A DNA stretch of 64,000 nucleotides, taken from Isoptericola cucumis. Lineage in GTDB: Bacteria; Actinomycetota; Actinomycetes; Actinomycetales; Cellulomonadaceae. The DNA lies in the NCBI RefSeq assembly GCF_014635665.1, contig NZ_BMDG01000001.1, positions 372,001-436,000 on the forward strand, in the 5' to 3' direction. The notes below the pieces were generated by a model. It was not told where the DNA came from and made no database searches. It was given only the letters and a program-made list of their open reading frames with translations. This document shows, one piece after another, positions 1 through 51,404 of this stretch. Made by a program: the position numbers and the translations under genes. Numbering within the stretch: the stretch's first letter is position 1; the number at the start of each line of letters is the position of its first letter.

Positions 1-1487
1 TGGTCGACGCGCGCCTGGTCGCGCCGCCGCTGACGGTGGACCAGGCGCGCCTCGACGCCGCGCTGGCGCGGCTGTTCCCCGGCGCGAGCGACGTGCGCCA
101 GCGGCTCGCCGCCGAGCACGCCGCCGGGCGCCGGCTCACCGTACTCACGGGCGGGCCCGGCACCGGCAAGACGACGACGGTGGCGCGGCTCCTCGCCGTC
201 CTGCAGGACGGCGACGGCCCGCCGCTGCGCGTCGCGCTCGCGGCTCCGACGGGCAAGGCGGCGGCGCGCCTGCAGGAGGCGGTGCGCGACGTCGTCACCG
301 ACCTCGACCCGCAGGACCGGGACCGCACGGGCAGCCCCGAGGCCACGACCGTGCACCGGCTGCTCGGCTACCGCAGCGCGACCCGCTTCCGGCACCACGC
401 GGGCCACCACCTGCCCCACGACGTCGTCGTGGTCGACGAGACCTCCATGGTGCCGCTGTCCCTCATGGCCCGGCTGCTGGAGTCGCTGCGTCCCGACGCC
501 CGGCTGGTGCTCGTCGGCGACCCGGACCAGCTCGCCTCCGTCGAGGCCGGCGCCGTCCTCGGCGATCTGGTCGCGCGCCCGCCCGTGGCGGCGCCCGTCG
601 AGACGCGGACCGACCGGTCCGACCGACCCGCCGACGACCTCGACGGCCTCGACGACGAGGCGCGCGCGGGCGTGGGCAACGGCGTCGTGCGGCTCGTGAC
701 GGTGCACCGCCAGGGCTCCGACTCCGCGATCCTGCCGCTCGCGGCGGCGATCCGCGACGGCGACGCCGACACCGTGCTGGACGTCCTGCGCGCCGGGACC
801 GGCGGCGTCGAGCTGGTGGAGGCCGACACCGAGCGCCTCGACGAGCACGCCGTCGCGGGGCTCCGGGACGACGCGATCGACGCCGGGCGCCGGCTCGTGT
901 CCGCCGCGCGCGCCGGCGACGCCGCCGGGGCGCTCGACGCGCTGGCGGCGCACCGGGTGATGGTCGCCCACCGCCGCGGTCCGGTGGGCGTCGCCCGCTG
1001 GGCGGCGCAGGTCGAGGCGTGGGTCGAGGAGGCCACGGCCGGCGTCGCCGCGCCCGCGCACGCCTCGACCCCGTGGGTCGTCGGCCGCCCGCTGCTGGTG
1101 ACCAGCAACGACGCCGAGGTCGGCCTGTACAACGGCGACACCGGCGTGCTCGTCGCCGAGGGCGAGGCGGCGCCGGCGGGCGACGCGGGCGCGGTGGTGG
1201 CGGTGTTCGGCGACCCGCGCGCGCCGCTGCGGGTGCGCACGCACCGGCTGCCGCCGGTGGAGACGGTGCACGCGATGACGGTGCACCGTGCGCAGGGCAG
1301 CCAGTTCCGCCGCGTGTCGCTCATCCTGCCGCCCGCCACGTCGCCGCTGCTGACCCGCGAGCTGCTGTACACGGCGGTGACCCGCGCCCAGGAGCTCGTG
1401 CGCGTGGTGGCGACCGCCGACGCCGTGCGGGCCGCCGTCGGGCACCCGGTACGGCGCGCGAGCGGCCTGCGCGACCCCCTCCCCTGA
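1..1487 (+). CDS. recD: RecD-like exodeoxyribonuclease V alpha subunit / superfamily 1 helicase, 5' end outside window
   Basis: The reading frame stays open to the first base, so the gene begins upstream; the GTG at 36 is probably internal. The frame encodes an SF1 helicase core: Walker A GGPGTGKTTT (about nt 150-180), Walker B VVVVDETSM (about 424-450), motif III LVGDPDQL near 512, and the C-terminal motifs TVHAMTVHRAQGSQF (near 1265) and LLYTAVTRA typical of RecD. RecD is the 5'-3' helicase subunit of RecBCD, which processes double-strand breaks. The recB and recC genes would be expected just upstream, out of view. RecD2, a stand-alone relative, cannot be excluded because the N-terminus is missing. 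Confidence 0.9.
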   Translation, partial: VDARLVAPPLTVDQARLDAALARLFPGASDVRQRLAAEHAAGRRLTVLTGGPGTGKTTTVARLLAVLQDGDGPPLRVALAAPTGKAAARLQEAVRDVVTDLDPQDRDRTGSPEATTVHRLLGYRSATRFRHHAGHHLPHDVVVVDETSMVPLSLMARLLESLRPDARLVLVGDPDQLASVEAGAVLGDLVARPPVAAPVETRTDRSDRPADDLDGLDDEARAGVGNGVVRLVTVHRQGSDSAILPLAAAIRDGDADTVLDVLRAGTGGVELVEADTERLDEHAVAGLRDDAIDAGRRLVSAARAGDAAGALDALAAHRVMVAHRRGPVGVARWAAQVEAWVEEATAGVAAPAHASTPWVVGRPLLVTSNDAEVGLYNGDTGVLVAEGEAAPAGDAGAVVAVFGDPRAPLRVRTHRLPPVETVHAMTVHRAQGSQFRRVSLILPPATSPLLTRELLYTAVTRAQELVRVVATADAVRAAVGHPVRRASGLRDPLP

Positions 1488-8924: not shown

Positions 8925-8967
8925 GGTCAGAGCGGGTTCAGGTCAGAGCGGGATCAGGTCAGGGCGG
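8925..8967. repeat. 16-bp tandem repeat over the purC stop codon
   Basis: Two full units and one partial unit in plus-strand form: GGTCAGAGCGGGTTCA (8925-8940), GGTCAGAGCGGGATCA (8941-8956) and GGTCAGGGCGG (8957-8967). The purC stop (TCA on the plus strand, 8954-8956) falls in the second unit, so the repeat copies the stop codon and its context into the 3' flank. A different 16-bp repeat with the same arrangement lies at 25903-25944. Confidence 0.85.
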
Positions 8968-9922
8968 TACCGGTGAGGCGCTCGTACGCCTCGAGGTAGC
9001 GGTCCTGGGTGCGGCGCACGACGTCGTCGGGCAGCGCCGGCGGGGGCGTGTCCGACGACCGGTCCCACCCGGAGCCCGGGGACGTCAGCCAGTCGCGCAC
9101 GTCCTGCTTGTCGAAGCTCGGCTGCGAGCGGCCCGGCTCCCACCGGTCGGCCGGCCAGAAGCGCGACGAGTCGGGGGTGAGCACCTCGTCGCCGAGCACC
9201 GTGGCGCCCGTCGCCGGGTCCACCCCGAACTCCAGCTTCGTGTCCGCGAGGATCACGCCGCGCTCGCGGGCGATCTCCTCCGCGCGGGCGTAGACGGCGA
9301 GGGTCAGGTCGCGCAGGCGGGCGGCGGCCTCGCCCCCGACCTGGCGCGCGACCTCGGCGAACGTCACGTTCTCGTCGTGCTCGCCCACCTCGGCCTTGGT
9401 GGCGGGGGTGAAGATCGGCTCGGGCAGCCGGGACCCGTCCACCAGGCCCGCGGGCAGCGGGATGCCCGTGACCTGCCCGTTCGTGCGGTACTCCGCCAGG
9501 CCGGAGCCCGTGAGGTACCCGCGTGCCACGCACTCGACGGGGAACATCTCCAGCCGGCGGCAGATCATCGCGCGCCCGGCGACGACGTCGGGCACCAGGC
9601 CGTCGCCCGGCTCCGCGCTCGCCTCGGTCGACACCACGTGGTTGTCCACGACGTCGGCGAGCTGGTCGAACCACCACAGGCTGAGCTGGGTGAGCACCAC
9701 GCCCTTGTCGGGGATCCCCGGGTCCAGGACGTGGTCGAACGCGGAGATGCGGTCGGACGCCACCACGAGCACGACGTCCCCCAGCGGGTGCGCCCCGCCG
9801 AGGACCGGCAGGTCGGGCTCGTACAGGTCGCGGACCTTGCCGGAGTAGACGTGGCGCCAGCCCGGCAGGTCGAGCGGGCCGCCCGCGAAGGCGTCGGACT
9901 GGGGTTCTCGCGTCTCCGTCAC
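8954..9922 (-). CDS. purC: Phosphoribosylaminoimidazole-succinocarboxamide synthase (SAICAR synthetase)
   Basis: This enzyme joins CAIR and aspartate using ATP (purine step 7). Key sequences: HVYSGKVRDLYE near residue 25, VVASDRISAFDHVL near 55, and the family signatures LPEPIFTPATKAEVGEHDENVTF and LADTKLEFGVD. The length of 322 residues suits the longer SAICAR synthetase form. The start is GTG 9922 (VTETREPQ), only 13 bases after the stop of the DUF4143 gene, so any promoter or ribosome site for purC must lie within that gene's 3' end. Confidence 0.95.
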   Translation of the reverse strand: MTETREPQSDAFAGGPLDLPGWRHVYSGKVRDLYEPDLPVLGGAHPLGDVVLVVASDRISAFDHVLDPGIPDKGVVLTQLSLWWFDQLADVVDNHVVSTEASAEPGDGLVPDVVAGRAMICRRLEMFPVECVARGYLTGSGLAEYRTNGQVTGIPLPAGLVDGSRLPEPIFTPATKAEVGEHDENVTFAEVARQVGGEAAARLRDLTLAVYARAEEIARERGVILADTKLEFGVDPATGATVLGDEVLTPDSSRFWPADRWEPGRSQPSFDKQDVRDWLTSPGSGWDRSSDTPPPALPDDVVRRTQDRYLEAYERLTGTALT

Positions 9923-9935
9923 GGCGCCCAGTCTC

Positions 9936-11174
9936 TCACCGCCAGATCGAGGCGATCGGCATCGCCCAGATCCGGTCGCCGAGCGGGTAGACGAGCCTTC
10001 CCGTATGGAACACGATCCCCCGTCGGAACGCATCGCCGAGCTCGTCGCGCAACCAGGCCAGATGGCGGGCATCGCGCGCGCTCGGCCCGCCGCCGGCCTT
10101 GATCTCGATCCCCACGACGTCACCACGCCGGGACTCCAACAGCAGGTCGACCTCGTGCCGCCCCGAGCTGTCGCGAAGGTGGTGCGCCACCGTCCGAGTC
10201 CTGCTCAGCCGGAACAACGGGCGCAGCTGAGCCGCCACGAACGAATCGAGGACACGCCCCAGGAGGTCAGCGCTGCGGACGACGCCCTCTCCGTCGATCC
10301 CTGACAGCCACATGGCGAGTCCGGTGTCGACGACGTGATATTTGGGGCCCTTGACCAGCCTGCTGAGACGGTTCGAGTGCCACGCGGGCAGTCGCTCGAC
10401 GATCCCTAGGTCCTCAAGCAGATCGAGGTGCACCCGAACGGTCTTTGCGTCGGCGCCGGCTGCGGACGTCAGCGTCTGCAATGTCGGCAGACCTGCGGTG
10501 TTCAAGGCGATGGCACGCAAGAGGTCGATCATGCGGCGCGGTGCCCGGACCTCGGCCAGGCTGAGGACGTCCCGCCCGACGAGCTGTTCGATGTATCCGT
10601 CGAACCATTCCTCGCGAGCACGGGGTGATCGTCGGACTGCTTCCGGAAATCCCCCCTCCGCGGCCCAGGCTGCGTAGTCGAAGATCGTCGGAGCACCGGG
10701 CATCTCCCCCGCTTCTTCGGTCTCCGAGGAGAAGATCCGGTCGATGAACGAGAGCGCGCTGTCGGAGCGCTCCTTCTCGCCCATCGCGAGCCCGTACAGA
10801 GTGATCGGCGTCACCCGGCCCGTACCCGGCCACGACTCTCCGGACCGACGCGCACGGACGCTGCCCGTGATGAGGAAACGCCCGTCCCCTTTTCCTGCGT
10901 CGACCGAGCGCTTGACGGCCGCCATCGACTCCGGGACCTCCTGCCACTCGTCCAGGAGGATCGGTTCCGGCAGCCGTTCGAGGAACGCGTCCGGCTGCCC
11001 GGCGAAGGCCGCAGCCTGCTCCGGTTCGTCGAGGCGGACGACTGAATTTGCGCGCCGGAGCGCGCTCGTCGACTTTCCGCAGCCACGGGGTCCGGTGAGC
11101 ATCACCGCCGGGAGCTCGTCGAAGACCTCGTCCAGGTAGGCATCGATATAGCGCTCCAGGTACGCACCGGGCAT
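9936..11174 (-). CDS. AAA-fold ATP-binding protein with DUF4143 domain
   Basis: This is a 412-residue protein. The N-terminal AAA_14-type ATPase has Walker A LTGPRGCGKSTSA near residue 25 and Walker B PEPILLDEWQEVP near 68, then GRFLITGS (sensor-like). The C-terminal DUF4143 region includes GGFPEAVRRS, a helix-turn-helix-like stretch LTSAAGADAKTVRVHLDLLEDLGIV, and HEVDLLLESRRGDVVGIEIKAG, which resembles a PD-(D/E)XK nuclease-like fold (D...E-x-K). This family is widespread and scattered in prokaryotes, with no settled role. GC content is clearly lower than in the neighbouring pur genes. It sits between purD and purC behind a palindromic repeat array, which suggests acquisition by transfer. 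Confidence 0.88.
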   Translation of the reverse strand: MPGAYLERYIDAYLDEVFDELPAVMLTGPRGCGKSTSALRRANSVVRLDEPEQAAAFAGQPDAFLERLPEPILLDEWQEVPESMAAVKRSVDAGKGDGRFLITGSVRARRSGESWPGTGRVTPITLYGLAMGEKERSDSALSFIDRIFSSETEEAGEMPGAPTIFDYAAWAAEGGFPEAVRRSPRAREEWFDGYIEQLVGRDVLSLAEVRAPRRMIDLLRAIALNTAGLPTLQTLTSAAGADAKTVRVHLDLLEDLGIVERLPAWHSNRLSRLVKGPKYHVVDTGLAMWLSGIDGEGVVRSADLLGRVLDSFVAAQLRPLFRLSRTRTVAHHLRDSSGRHEVDLLLESRRGDVVGIEIKAGGGPSARDARHLAWLRDELGDAFRRGIVFHTGRLVYPLGDRIWAMPIASIWR

Positions 11175-11222
11175 CGTCGTCCCTCTCCGTTGGCGACTGC
11201 CACCGGACACTGAGCCTAATCC

Positions 11223-11306
11223 CGATTCTGCACAGGTGCTAGTCCCTGTTCTGCACAGGTGCTAGTCCCTGTTCTGAACAGGCGCGCAAGTCCCTCTTTG
11301 CTACAG
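11223..11306. repeat. Array of four 13-bp palindromic boxes with 23-25 bp period
   Basis: Boxes in plus-strand form: CGATTCTGCACAG (11223-11235), CTGTTCTGCACAG (11246-11258), CTGTTCTGAACAG (11269-11281) and a degenerate CTCTTTGCTACAG (11294-11306). The third is a perfect odd palindrome (CTGTTC-T-GAACAG). Each box is followed by a shared tail, GTGCTAGTCC or a variant, so the whole unit is directly repeated at 23, 23 and 25 bp. The array fills the 147-bp gap between purD and the DUF4143 start. It could be an operator, a protein-binding iteron set, or the footprint of an insertion. Confidence 0.85.
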
Positions 11307-11321
11307 GCGTTGCCGAAGTCC

Positions 11322-12605
11322 TCAGGGGACGGTGACCTCGCCGCGCTCGGCCTTGAGCGCGATGTCGCTGCGGTGGTGCGACCCGGCAAGCGCGATCTTC
11401 GCGACGCCGGCGTACGACGCCGCGCGGGCCGCCGCGAGGTCCGCCCCCCGCCCGACGACGGACAGCACGCGCCCGCCGGCGGACACCAGCGTGCCGTCGT
11501 CTCCCGCCGCCGTGCCCGCGTGCAGCACGTGCACGCCGTCGGTGGCCTCGGCGTCGGCGATCCCCGCGATCACGTCGCCCTTGCGCGGCGACTCGGGGTA
11601 GCCCTGCGAGGCGACGACGACGTTCACCACGGACTCGTCCGACCAGTGCAGCGGCTCGATCCCGTCGAGCCGGCCCGTGGCGGCCGCGAGCAGCACGCCG
11701 GACAGCGGCGTGCGCAGCCGCGCCAGGACAGCCTGGATCTCCGGGTCGCCGAAGCGGGCGTTGAACTCCACCACCCGCGTGCCGCGGCTGGTGAGCGCCA
11801 GCCCGACGTACAGCACCCCGGAGAACGGCGTGCCGCGGCGGGCCATCTCGGCGACCGTGGGCTGCGCGATGCGGTCGACGACCTCCGTCACCAGCCCCGA
11901 CGGCGCCCAGTCCAGCGGCGTGTAGGCGCCCATGCCTCCGGTGTTCGGGCCGGCGTCGTCGTCGCCGACGCGCTTGAAGTCCTGCGCCGGCACCATCGGC
12001 ACCACCGTGGCGCCGTCGCTCAGGCAGAACAGCGACACCTCCGGGCCGTCGAGGTACTCCTCCACGACCACGCGGCCGTCGTCGCCGCGCAACTCGAGCG
12101 CGCCCCGGGCGTGCTCGAGCGCGGCCTCGCGGTCCGGCGTCACGACGACGCCCTTGCCCGCGGCGAGGCCGTCGTCCTTGACGACGTACGGCGGGCCGAA
12201 GGCGTCGAGCGCGTCGGCCACCTGGTCGACCGTCGTGCACACGTGCGCCATCGCGGTCGGCACCGTGGCGGCGGCCATCACGTCCTTGGCGAACGCCTTG
12301 GACCCCTCGAGCCGCGCGGCCTCGGCCGACGGTCCGAAGCACGGGACGCCGGCCTCGCGCACGGCGTCCGCGACGCCGGCGACGAGCGGCGCCTCCGGCC
12401 CCACGACGACGAGGTCCACGCCGAGCCGCCGGGCGAGCGCGGCCACGGCGCGGCCGTCCTCCGCGTCGACGGGGTGCAGCGTCGCCTGGACCGCCATGCC
12501 GGGGTTCCCGGGCGCGGCGTGCAGCTCGGGCGCCGGCTCCTCGGACGCGAGGGCGTGGACGATGGCGTGCTCACGGGCACCGGTCCCGACGACGAGGATC
12601 TTCAC
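11322..12605 (-). CDS. purD: Phosphoribosylamine-glycine ligase (GAR synthetase)
   Basis: This is an ATP-grasp enzyme that makes glycinamide ribonucleotide, purine step 2. Evidence: MKILVVGTGAREHAI at the N-terminus, LVVVGPEAPLVAGVAD near residue 65, CFGPSAEAARLEGSKAF, KDDGLAAGKGVVV (ATP-grasp), GPNTGGMGAYTP and RVVEFNARFGDPEIQ (metal ligands E and N). Length of 427 residues is normal. It starts at ATG 12605, 45 bases after the preceding gene of the same strand. A palindromic array follows its stop, which separates it from purC by the DUF4143 gene. Confidence 0.97.
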   Translation of the reverse strand: MKILVVGTGAREHAIVHALASEEPAPELHAAPGNPGMAVQATLHPVDAEDGRAVAALARRLGVDLVVVGPEAPLVAGVADAVREAGVPCFGPSAEAARLEGSKAFAKDVMAAATVPTAMAHVCTTVDQVADALDAFGPPYVVKDDGLAAGKGVVVTPDREAALEHARGALELRGDDGRVVVEEYLDGPEVSLFCLSDGATVVPMVPAQDFKRVGDDDAGPNTGGMGAYTPLDWAPSGLVTEVVDRIAQPTVAEMARRGTPFSGVLYVGLALTSRGTRVVEFNARFGDPEIQAVLARLRTPLSGVLLAAATGRLDGIEPLHWSDESVVNVVVASQGYPESPRKGDVIAGIADAEATDGVHVLHAGTAAGDDGTLVSAGGRVLSVVGRGADLAAARAASYAGVAKIALAGSHHRSDIALKAERGEVTVP

Positions 12606-22853: not shown

Positions 22854-22903
22854 GTGTATAGCCAACACGCGGTGTATGCCATACACTCGTGTACGCCATA
22901 CAC
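22854..22903. promoter_or_regulatory. Three 15-bp dyad operators before the ABC exporter
   Basis: Boxes are GTGTATAGCCAACAC (22854-22868), GTGTATGCCATACAC (22872-22886, a perfect odd palindrome with 7-base arms) and GTGTACGCCATACAC (22889-22903). Their start-to-start spacing is 18 and 17 bp. They end 24 bp before the ATPase start and also lie in the pyrE intergenic region. The form suits a TetR-family dimer, and a TetR gene follows the exporter at 24862. The link between that TetR and these boxes is inferred from position. Confidence 0.85.
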
Positions 22904-50895: not shown

Positions 50896-51404
50896 TGGCC
50901 GCCGAGACCAGGCCCCGCCACCGGCGCTGGGCCTCGATCGGTGTCGTCGTGGCCGGCGGCGTGCTCGGGACCGCCGGCCGCGAGGGCGTGAACCTCGCGG
51001 TGCCGGACGTCGGCGAGCTCCCCGTCGCAGCCCCGGTCGTCAACGTCGTCGGGGCGTTCCTGCTGGGCTACCTCTACGAGGCCGTGACCCGCCGCCTGCC
51101 GGGCGACCCGCTCGGGCCCCGCCTCAGGCTGCTCCTCGGGACGGGATTCTGCGGCGGCTTCACGACGTACAGCACGCTGGCGGTCGACACCGCGCTGCTG
51201 CTCGACGGCGCACGCGTCGACCTCGCGCTGGCCTACGCCCTGGCGACGGTGGTGATCGGTGCGGTCGCGACCTTCTCCGGCATCGTCGTGGCTACCAGGG
51301 TCCACGCGCGCAAGCAGAGCGCCGACCGGAGCGTCGACCGTGCCGCCGAACGTGCCGCCGAACGTGCCGCCGAACGTGCCGCCGAACGGGGGACGGAGCG
51401 ATGA
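50895..51404 (+). CDS. crcB: Fluoride channel subunit CrcB (Fluc), copy 1
   Basis: This is a 169-residue, four-segment membrane protein. Key blocks: GGVLGTAGREGVNLAVP, VNVVGAFLLGYLYEAV (pore Asn) and GTGFCGGFTTYSTLAVDTALL (the conserved FTTFS region with pore Ser/Thr). Fluc channels are dual-topology dimers that expel F-. The C-terminal 35 residues are a charged tail made of four RAAE repeats encoded by a 12-bp DNA repeat. The gene pair encodes heterodimer-type subunits. Confidence 0.93.
   Translation: MAAETRPRHRRWASIGVVVAGGVLGTAGREGVNLAVPDVGELPVAAPVVNVVGAFLLGYLYEAVTRRLPGDPLGPRLRLLLGTGFCGGFTTYSTLAVDTALLLDGARVDLALAYALATVVIGAVATFSGIVVATRVHARKQSADRSVDRAAERAAERAAERAAERGTER
51339..51386. repeat. 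Four perfect 12-bp tandem repeats inside crcB copy 1
   Basis: The unit CGTGCCGCCGAA occurs four times without change, encoding Arg-Ala-Ala-Glu each time in the C-terminal tail of the first CrcB. Perfect identity suggests recent slippage, so copy number may differ between strains. It precedes the second crcB start by 15 bases. Confidence 0.9.

Follow-up and report, generated by a model that had tools for sequence, protein, structure and literature searches.

Iterons are direct repeats of 17-23 bp that lie beside the gene of a winged-helix initiator, and the initiator reads them and controls its own promoter. MalT oligomerises on its boxes and recruits RNA polymerase; it serves a regulon of targets and contains no nuclease domain. 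In systems with C proteins or BrxR/CapW, a separate DNA-binding repressor keeps the defence system low.

The PDC-S01 proteins, in which an ATPase is fused to a domain of the PD-(D/E)XK superfamily, were ranked as the fourth most common defence across prokaryotes in the passages of PMC12988326 cited here, with 29,494 counted in Bacteria and 9,986 in Archaea, and most PDCs of the core set were described there as still awaiting validation. We treat the anti-phage role of the PDC-S01 protein as a candidate one. Almost no literature on DUF4143/PDC-S01 was present in the open library searched. In a passage of PMC4406477, the RNA of the Thermus thermophilus DUF4143 gene TT_P0211 was up 6.6-fold with a plasmid in the Argonaute strain, so at least one DUF4143 gene responds to conditions.

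The window analysed here is a stretch of 64,000 nucleotides from Isoptericola cucumis, in which a gene of this family lies between purD and purC behind an array of direct repeats. The features of the locus were as follows.

11322-12605, minus strand: purD, the upstream neighbour, with Pfam GARS domains
11215-11238, 11238-11261, 11261-11284 and 11286-11309, minus strand: the direct-repeat array, four copies with a unit of about CTGTGCAGAACAGGGACTAGCAC
11213-11218, minus strand: predicted -10 hexamer TAGGCT, overlapping the gene-proximal copy, proposed from the sequence and by analogy with 116 of 229 relatives
11180-11188, minus strand: likely ribosome-binding site GGAGAGGGA, before the ATG at 11174, read from the sequence
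9936-11174, minus strand: gene of the AAA_14-DUF4143 ATPase with a winged helix and a PD-(D/E)XK-like domain, 412 aa (PADLOC PDC-S01)
10416-10451, minus strand: predicted recognition helix, residues 242-253 (DAKTVRVHLDLL), from 12-residue column scans
10299-10538, minus strand: winged helix-turn-helix (wHTH) region, residues 213-292, from weak Pfam HTH matches
8954-9878, minus strand: purC, the downstream neighbour, name and start (about 9878) read by eye, with no profile match

The array consisted of four 24-nt direct-repeat copies starting at 11215, 11238, 11261 and 11286 (spacing 23, 23 and 25 bp), which were 75, 92, 100 and 75% identical to the reference copy. TRF reported a period of 23 at 11226-11282 with 97% matches, and the 21-base unit pattern with up to three mismatches gave three matches in the window and none in 100 whole-window shuffles. 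None of 2000 dinucleotide shuffles of the 160-bp region attained the period-23 self-alignment score of 36.0. The four boxes and the spacing reported in the initial annotation were thus real, and their extent was revised from 11223-11308 to about 11215-11309. The gene downstream was, as had been proposed, a DUF4143 ATPase (AAA_14 and DUF4143) with a GC below that of the window (0.677 versus 0.749; 0.568 in the array). The boxes had also been called palindromic, but the third copy (11268-11282) alone came close to a palindrome. For the family the palindrome was rejected as the key feature, since the palindromicity over 130 loci was 10.18 against a null of 10.16 (14.67 in the window). The idea that all boxes could be bound on one DNA face did not hold either: by arithmetic, a 23-bp step at 10.5 bp/turn rotates each box by about 69 degrees, so the four boxes spiral around the helix. 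The window contained another tandem repeat at 51335-51388, with 4.5 copies of a 12-mer (97% matches), and a repeat with a 17-bp period at 22854-22903, whose palindrome-like unit was GTGTATGCCATACACGCG.

Analysis of the encoded protein revealed two Pfam matches over the cut-off, DUF4143 (5.8e-35) and AAA_14 (1.1e-14), and a match to the PADLOC profile PDLC04790 (PDC-S01; 2e-113) across residues 11-424 of the 424-aa ORF, which is nearly the whole protein. Among 64 aligned members, G28, G33, K34, D75 and D343 were invariant (64/64), and E341, E357 and K359 were kept in at least 90%. The roles of these residues, which we take from their motifs, are those of the Walker and PD-(D/E)XK sites, and their presence agrees with membership in PDC-S01 / AAA_14-DUF4143. 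Between the two regions, HTH_20, HTH_5, GntR and HTH_36 matched within residues 217-262, all below their cut-offs. The layout of an ATPase-wHTH-PD-(D/E)XK protein is one predicted from sequence profiles. No match to solved structures extended beyond the P-loop region. The genome of I. cucumis contained a single DUF4143 gene.

The array unit was private to this gene. The core was found 21 times with up to three mismatches in the 4.46-Mb genome: two exact matches and two with three mismatches lay inside the array, and the other 17 were scattered singles with three mismatches each (11 for the reversed control). The unit was intact only upstream of the sole DUF4143 gene, so the array was not scattered through the genome or found near unrelated genes, an outcome that the initial annotation had named as evidence against a link to DUF4143. 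This privacy, together with the rarity of such a period in neighbouring promoters (10/164), bears out the proposal of a dedicated cis-element. The 13-bp core itself, for which a search near other DUF4143 genes had been suggested, was not enriched: with up to two mismatches it occurred within 160 bp upstream in 3 of 228 relatives (all except the window's own gene) versus 1 of 229 shuffled, and an exact contig search with 18 specified bases of the unit gave no match. A conserved family-wide core was rejected on these grounds. Each clade has its own unit, so a search with this core would miss the pattern.

The units differed between loci, close relatives excepted. In the same-genus genome G258, from which seven relatives were fetched, the upstream repeats differed by eye and some shared a GTAG box, while the best period was 23 in all seven (3/7 at 0/50 shuffles). 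One G258 array unit gave three matches at its own site and three scattered singles with 2-3 mismatches (12 for the reversed control). No second array of the same unit was found in the two genomes searched, each with one array pattern, and single sites with 2-3 mismatches occurred there at about chance level. Two arrays from the same genome resembled each other about as much as any two arrays did (mean 9.83 versus 9.69; 58 pairs, highest 13.97), and the 453 array pairs with wHTH regions more than 60% identical had a mean similarity of 11.79.

What the relatives shared was the period. In a first set, made up of the window and 77 of the 80 relatives from the contig search, 53 of 78 loci had a period at no more than 1/100 shuffles, 45 at 23 bp, 8 at 22 bp and none at any other. 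For the main set, which also took in loci from whole genomes, 246 gene matches were reduced to 235 loci with an N-terminal match and, after removal of proteins identical over residues 60-300, to 229. These relatives, drawn by similarity to the window protein or its family and taken by hand from lists, were mostly actinobacterial and form no census. The best upstream period was 22 or 23 bp in 191 of the 229 (23 in 153 and 22 in 38). All 100 shuffles were beaten in 148 loci, 116 at 23 bp and 26 at 22 bp (142 in all), with the remaining significant periods at 32 (two), 33 (two), 24 (one) and 38 bp (one); the other 81 loci failed to beat all shuffles. In control windows of 160 bp inside the same genes, 8 of 229 had a best period of 22/23 and two were significant, neither at 22/23. 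Of 164 promoters that belonged to neighbouring long ORFs, 10 had this period and one was significant there. The counts with one protein kept per cluster were as follows: at 60% identity, 103 of 132 had a best period of 22/23 and 78 were significant; at 50%, 51 and 39 of 73; and at 40%, only 17 of 31, with 13 significant at that period. The period followed the protein phylogeny and is a clade trait, with 11 changes on the protein tree of 168 labelled loci versus a minimum of 29 in 200 shuffled runs.

The upstream period also crossed phyla. It was present at an archaeal MAG locus (L087), and seven plasmid loci retrieved among the nine best hits (of 237 records) to the L087 protein all had a period of 23 at 0/100 shuffles. 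These came from two Bacteroides, two Collinsella, Prosthecochloris, Lentilactobacillus and Actinomyces, that is, from Bacteroidota, Coriobacteriia, Chlorobiota, Lactobacillales and Actinomycetales. Distant DUF4143 clades were often without a clear array: among 51 mostly more distant loci, 14 were at 22/23 and five at 32/33 with 0/50 shuffles. Of ten proteobacterial, Thermus and mycobacterial plasmid loci, eight had a best period of 22 or 23 and one reached 1/100 shuffles; two of 17 viral loci reached 1/100 or better, making 3/27 for viral and plasmid loci together. A separate DUF4143 clade (L121, L126, L127, L128, L130, L133) had upstream repeats of 32/33 bp, with L126 scored at 38; a step of 32/33 bp is about one helical turn more than 22/23. 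The distant relatives L085, L095, L114 and L302-L304 had palindromic CCA..TGG-type boxes, about 22 bp apart in several of them, and no asymmetric direct repeats. The sister family DUF234 (PF03008; L311-L340), for which 28 of 30 loci were used, was rejected as sharing the 23-bp period (1/28). Its best upstream period was 15 bp in 11 of 28 loci, 4 of 28 were at no more than 1/100 shuffles, and some had palindromic TTACT..AGTAA-like boxes. The 15-bp repeats are perhaps another array grammar.

The array overlapped the promoter in many relatives. In 116 of the 229 loci (86 + 30), a TAnnnT hexamer preceded the start codon by 6 or 7 nt, where about 4 were expected per position; with one protein kept per 50% cluster, 28 of 73 had it. 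Smaller TAnnnT peaks lay 29-30 and 52-53 nt before the start, 23 and 46 bp further upstream. The -10 box was located in the last array copy, in register with the repeat, in many 23-bp loci; the most frequent array end in the 22-bp class was about 10 bp before the -10 (7 of 17 at 10 or 11 bp). Such overlap would be expected of an autoregulated operator. A spacing of 6-7 nt between -10 and start codon would fit leaderless mRNAs. In the window, transcription would start a few bases downstream of TAGGCT, by analogy with the relatives, and since this hexamer at 11213-11218 is followed by the ribosome-binding site and the ATG at 11174, the mRNA would have a short leader. The array lay upstream of the inferred transcription start in many relatives, which disfavours an RNA element, and the one Rfam match was sub-threshold (mir-2450, 24.1 bits versus a cut-off of 59). 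A phage origin or target was also rejected, with seven phage-collection records matching short pieces at E about 5.

To see which part of the protein tracked the array, array similarity was compared with the identity of each domain by partial rank correlation over locus pairs. The 23-bp class comprised 130 loci with an array at no more than 2/100 shuffles, and the 22-bp class 29 loci at no more than 5/100. In the 23-bp class, pairs with a mean AAA and nuclease identity above 0.42 gave 0.194 for the wHTH (0/300 permutations), 0.046 for the AAA domain (27/300) and 0.061 for the nuclease (15/300), and pairs at 42-60% identity gave 0.190 (0/500), 0.004 (223/500) and 0.029 (105/500), respectively. 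In the 22-bp class, the wHTH reached 0.214 (0/500), the nuclease 0.155 (12/500) and the AAA domain 0.104 (27/500). With one locus per 70% cluster, the values were 0.106 for the wHTH (5/500), 0.084 for the nuclease (3/500) and 0.065 for the AAA domain (20/500), and when distant pairs were added (threshold 0.3), the AAA domain led with 0.131 versus 0.056. The coupling of array and wHTH was weak in size (r 0.1-0.2) and shrank with one locus per 70% cluster.

Windows of 12 residues were then scanned over the alignable columns, with correction for overall identity. In the first scans, the best window was 242-253 at a threshold of 0.40 and the overlapping 246-257 at 0.46, with 242-253 second. In the scans of phased arrays, the best windows were 264-275 at 0.35, 242-253 at 0.40 and 275-286 at 0.46, where 242-253 was third; at 0.35 the window 242-253 was absent from the six listed, and at 0.40 the best window exceeded all 200 permutations. 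The predicted recognition helix 242-253 was the top window in two of five scans, and each of the five had its best window either in this helix or in the wing region. A nuclease-domain window, 367-378, was nearly as high in the phased scans at 0.35 and 0.40. These comparisons of sequences point, with moderate strength, to the protein's own winged helix as the reader of the array. The nuclease-like fold, which the initial annotation had offered as a possible reader, is less likely than the winged helix in that role, although the nuclease domain was the second-best predictor of the array in several tests. Neighbouring genes were rejected as partners: no flanking family recurred in more than 4 of 77 loci, so the ATPase was the only constant partner seen.

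The gene and its array appear to have entered between purD and purC. A purD locus was fetched from 15 other genomes of the genus: purC lay within about 200 bp of purD in nine (L141, L142, L144, L148, L149, L152-L155), was 750-830 bp away in two and was not within reach in four. By-eye comparison with eight of the nine junctions placed the insert in the window from close behind the purD stop to the ATPase stop, and with these bounds the gene and array seem to form the whole inserted unit. No terminal repeats were noticed at the insert ends in this comparison. At the L144 junction lay a pair of array-like boxes with a spacing of about 23 bp, together with the final codons of a DUF4143 gene. They are the relic of a lost DUF4143 copy, in the position that the insert occupies in the window. 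The stretch behind purD carried other DNA in the same-genus genomes L143, L145-L147, L150 and L151, and is a possible small insertion hotspot.

We consider it likely that the ATPase-nuclease reads its own array over its own promoter, acting most likely as a repressor. The array would be the private operator of a solo ATPase-wHTH-PD-(D/E)XK gene, lying over its promoter and read by the encoded winged helix. Protomers would bind the directly repeated sites successively, probably as an oligomer, and the step of the oligomer would set the period of 22/23 bp (32/33 bp in one clade). With the last copy on or next to the -10 and the copy before it at the -35 position, binding would most likely shut off the gene's own transcription. 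Such self-repression would keep a hazardous ATPase-nuclease low, and its nucleotide state or another signal, perhaps invading DNA, would change the protein's grip. The array diverges together with the protein, so cross-regulation between paralogs of the same cell need not occur. The self-control suggested in the initial annotation is thereby the best-supported reading, through the array-wHTH coupling and the column scans. What was observed is the array, its privacy in its own genome, the family-wide period, the overlap with the promoter and the coupling to the wHTH; direct binding, the oligomer, repression rather than activation, the triggering signal and defence are inferences.

The best surviving alternative, which we regard as unlikely, is self-activation, in which the ATP-bound protein would oligomerise on the array and recruit RNA polymerase to a promoter lacking a -35 box. 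A -35 and a -10 separated by a 17-bp spacer are likewise 23 bp apart, and a -35 TTG at spacer 17 was found in only 6 of the 116 loci (1.3 expected by chance); the place was often taken by the TAG of the preceding copy (T 54%, A 46% and G 45% per column). Additionally, 30 of the 64 members had weak nSTAND3 matches at E up to 1 (best 0.0011). An overlap with the -10 agrees with repression, and the scarcity of the -35 TTG would also fit activation. However, the last copy covers the -10 in many 23-bp loci, which favours blocking, and poor -35 boxes are common anyway in leaderless actinobacterial promoters.

It is rather improbable, in our judgement, that the locus is a one-protein, self-addressed immune or selfish unit, in which a spiral oligomer of the ATP-driven ATPase-nuclease on the array would silence the gene and hold the nuclease safe until invasion or loss of the array released it. 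If this were true, the array would be both a self mark and a safety catch, with very many distinct address codes.

The chance is small that the main role of the array is as a docking or assembly site, which would keep the nuclease safe or poised at an address of its own and affect the promoter incidentally. The near-invariance of E341, D343, E357 and K359 would fit such a site, as would the rank of the nuclease domain as second-best predictor and the number of copies, three in 73 and four in 41 of the 142 significant arrays, which is more than a simple operator needs. But the register of the -10 with the repeat in many loci is needless for pure docking, and the two genomes searched had no further arrays.

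Binding by another host regulator is very improbable: that the ATPase binds is our reading of the sequences, but paralog units in one genome differ with the period kept, no neighbour gene recurs, and the array tracks the wHTH of the ATPase protein. Neutral tandem duplication or a GC-rich promoter artefact has close to no chance, for although the window had many short tandem repeats (153 rows at a low threshold) and 13 of 164 neighbouring promoters had some significant period, 22/23 bp dominated in the relatives while the control periods were scattered, and the Bacteroides and Lentilactobacillus plasmids and the archaeal MAG shared the period.

Returning to a self-read operator, the open literature searched, with subscription journals and preprints lying outside it, showed no earlier account of an array of this kind. 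DUF4143/PDC-S01 genes are among the most abundant candidate defence genes in the cited passages of PMC12988326, and a cognate DNA array would offer a way into the binding, switching and paralog coexistence of their proteins. The relatives would supply a natural library in which wHTH sequences are paired with candidate target sites, from which specificity could be decoded. For annotators, the array gives a signature of start site and promoter.

By its profile, the window protein is a member of PDC-S01 (PDLC04790, 2e-113), and the cited passages of PMC12988326 mention no cis-array or regulation for that family. By analogy, the array would work like iterons or MalT boxes. Like iterons, it consists of direct repeats of roughly 22 bp next to a gene whose product has a winged helix and would here be the reader, controlling its own promoter. 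It differs from them in that no replication (Rep) domain was found among the Pfam families listed, where AAA_14 and DUF4143 alone were over the cut-off, and in that the protein combines an ATPase with a nuclease motif; a replication initiator of the iteron-Rep type is thus not what was found. The gene is also a solo one, which occurs on plasmids too but lies here between purD and purC. MalT and other STAND proteins are similar as ATPases on tandem asymmetric promoter boxes, where the protein studied here may oligomerise; the nSTAND3 matches in its family are weak. In contrast to MalT with its regulon, no second array was present in the two genomes searched. RptR, CapK/CapS and a WYL-domain family are reported to be further self-regulated defence operons. 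Unlike in these defence systems, the regulator, the ATPase and the nuclease would here be one polypeptide.
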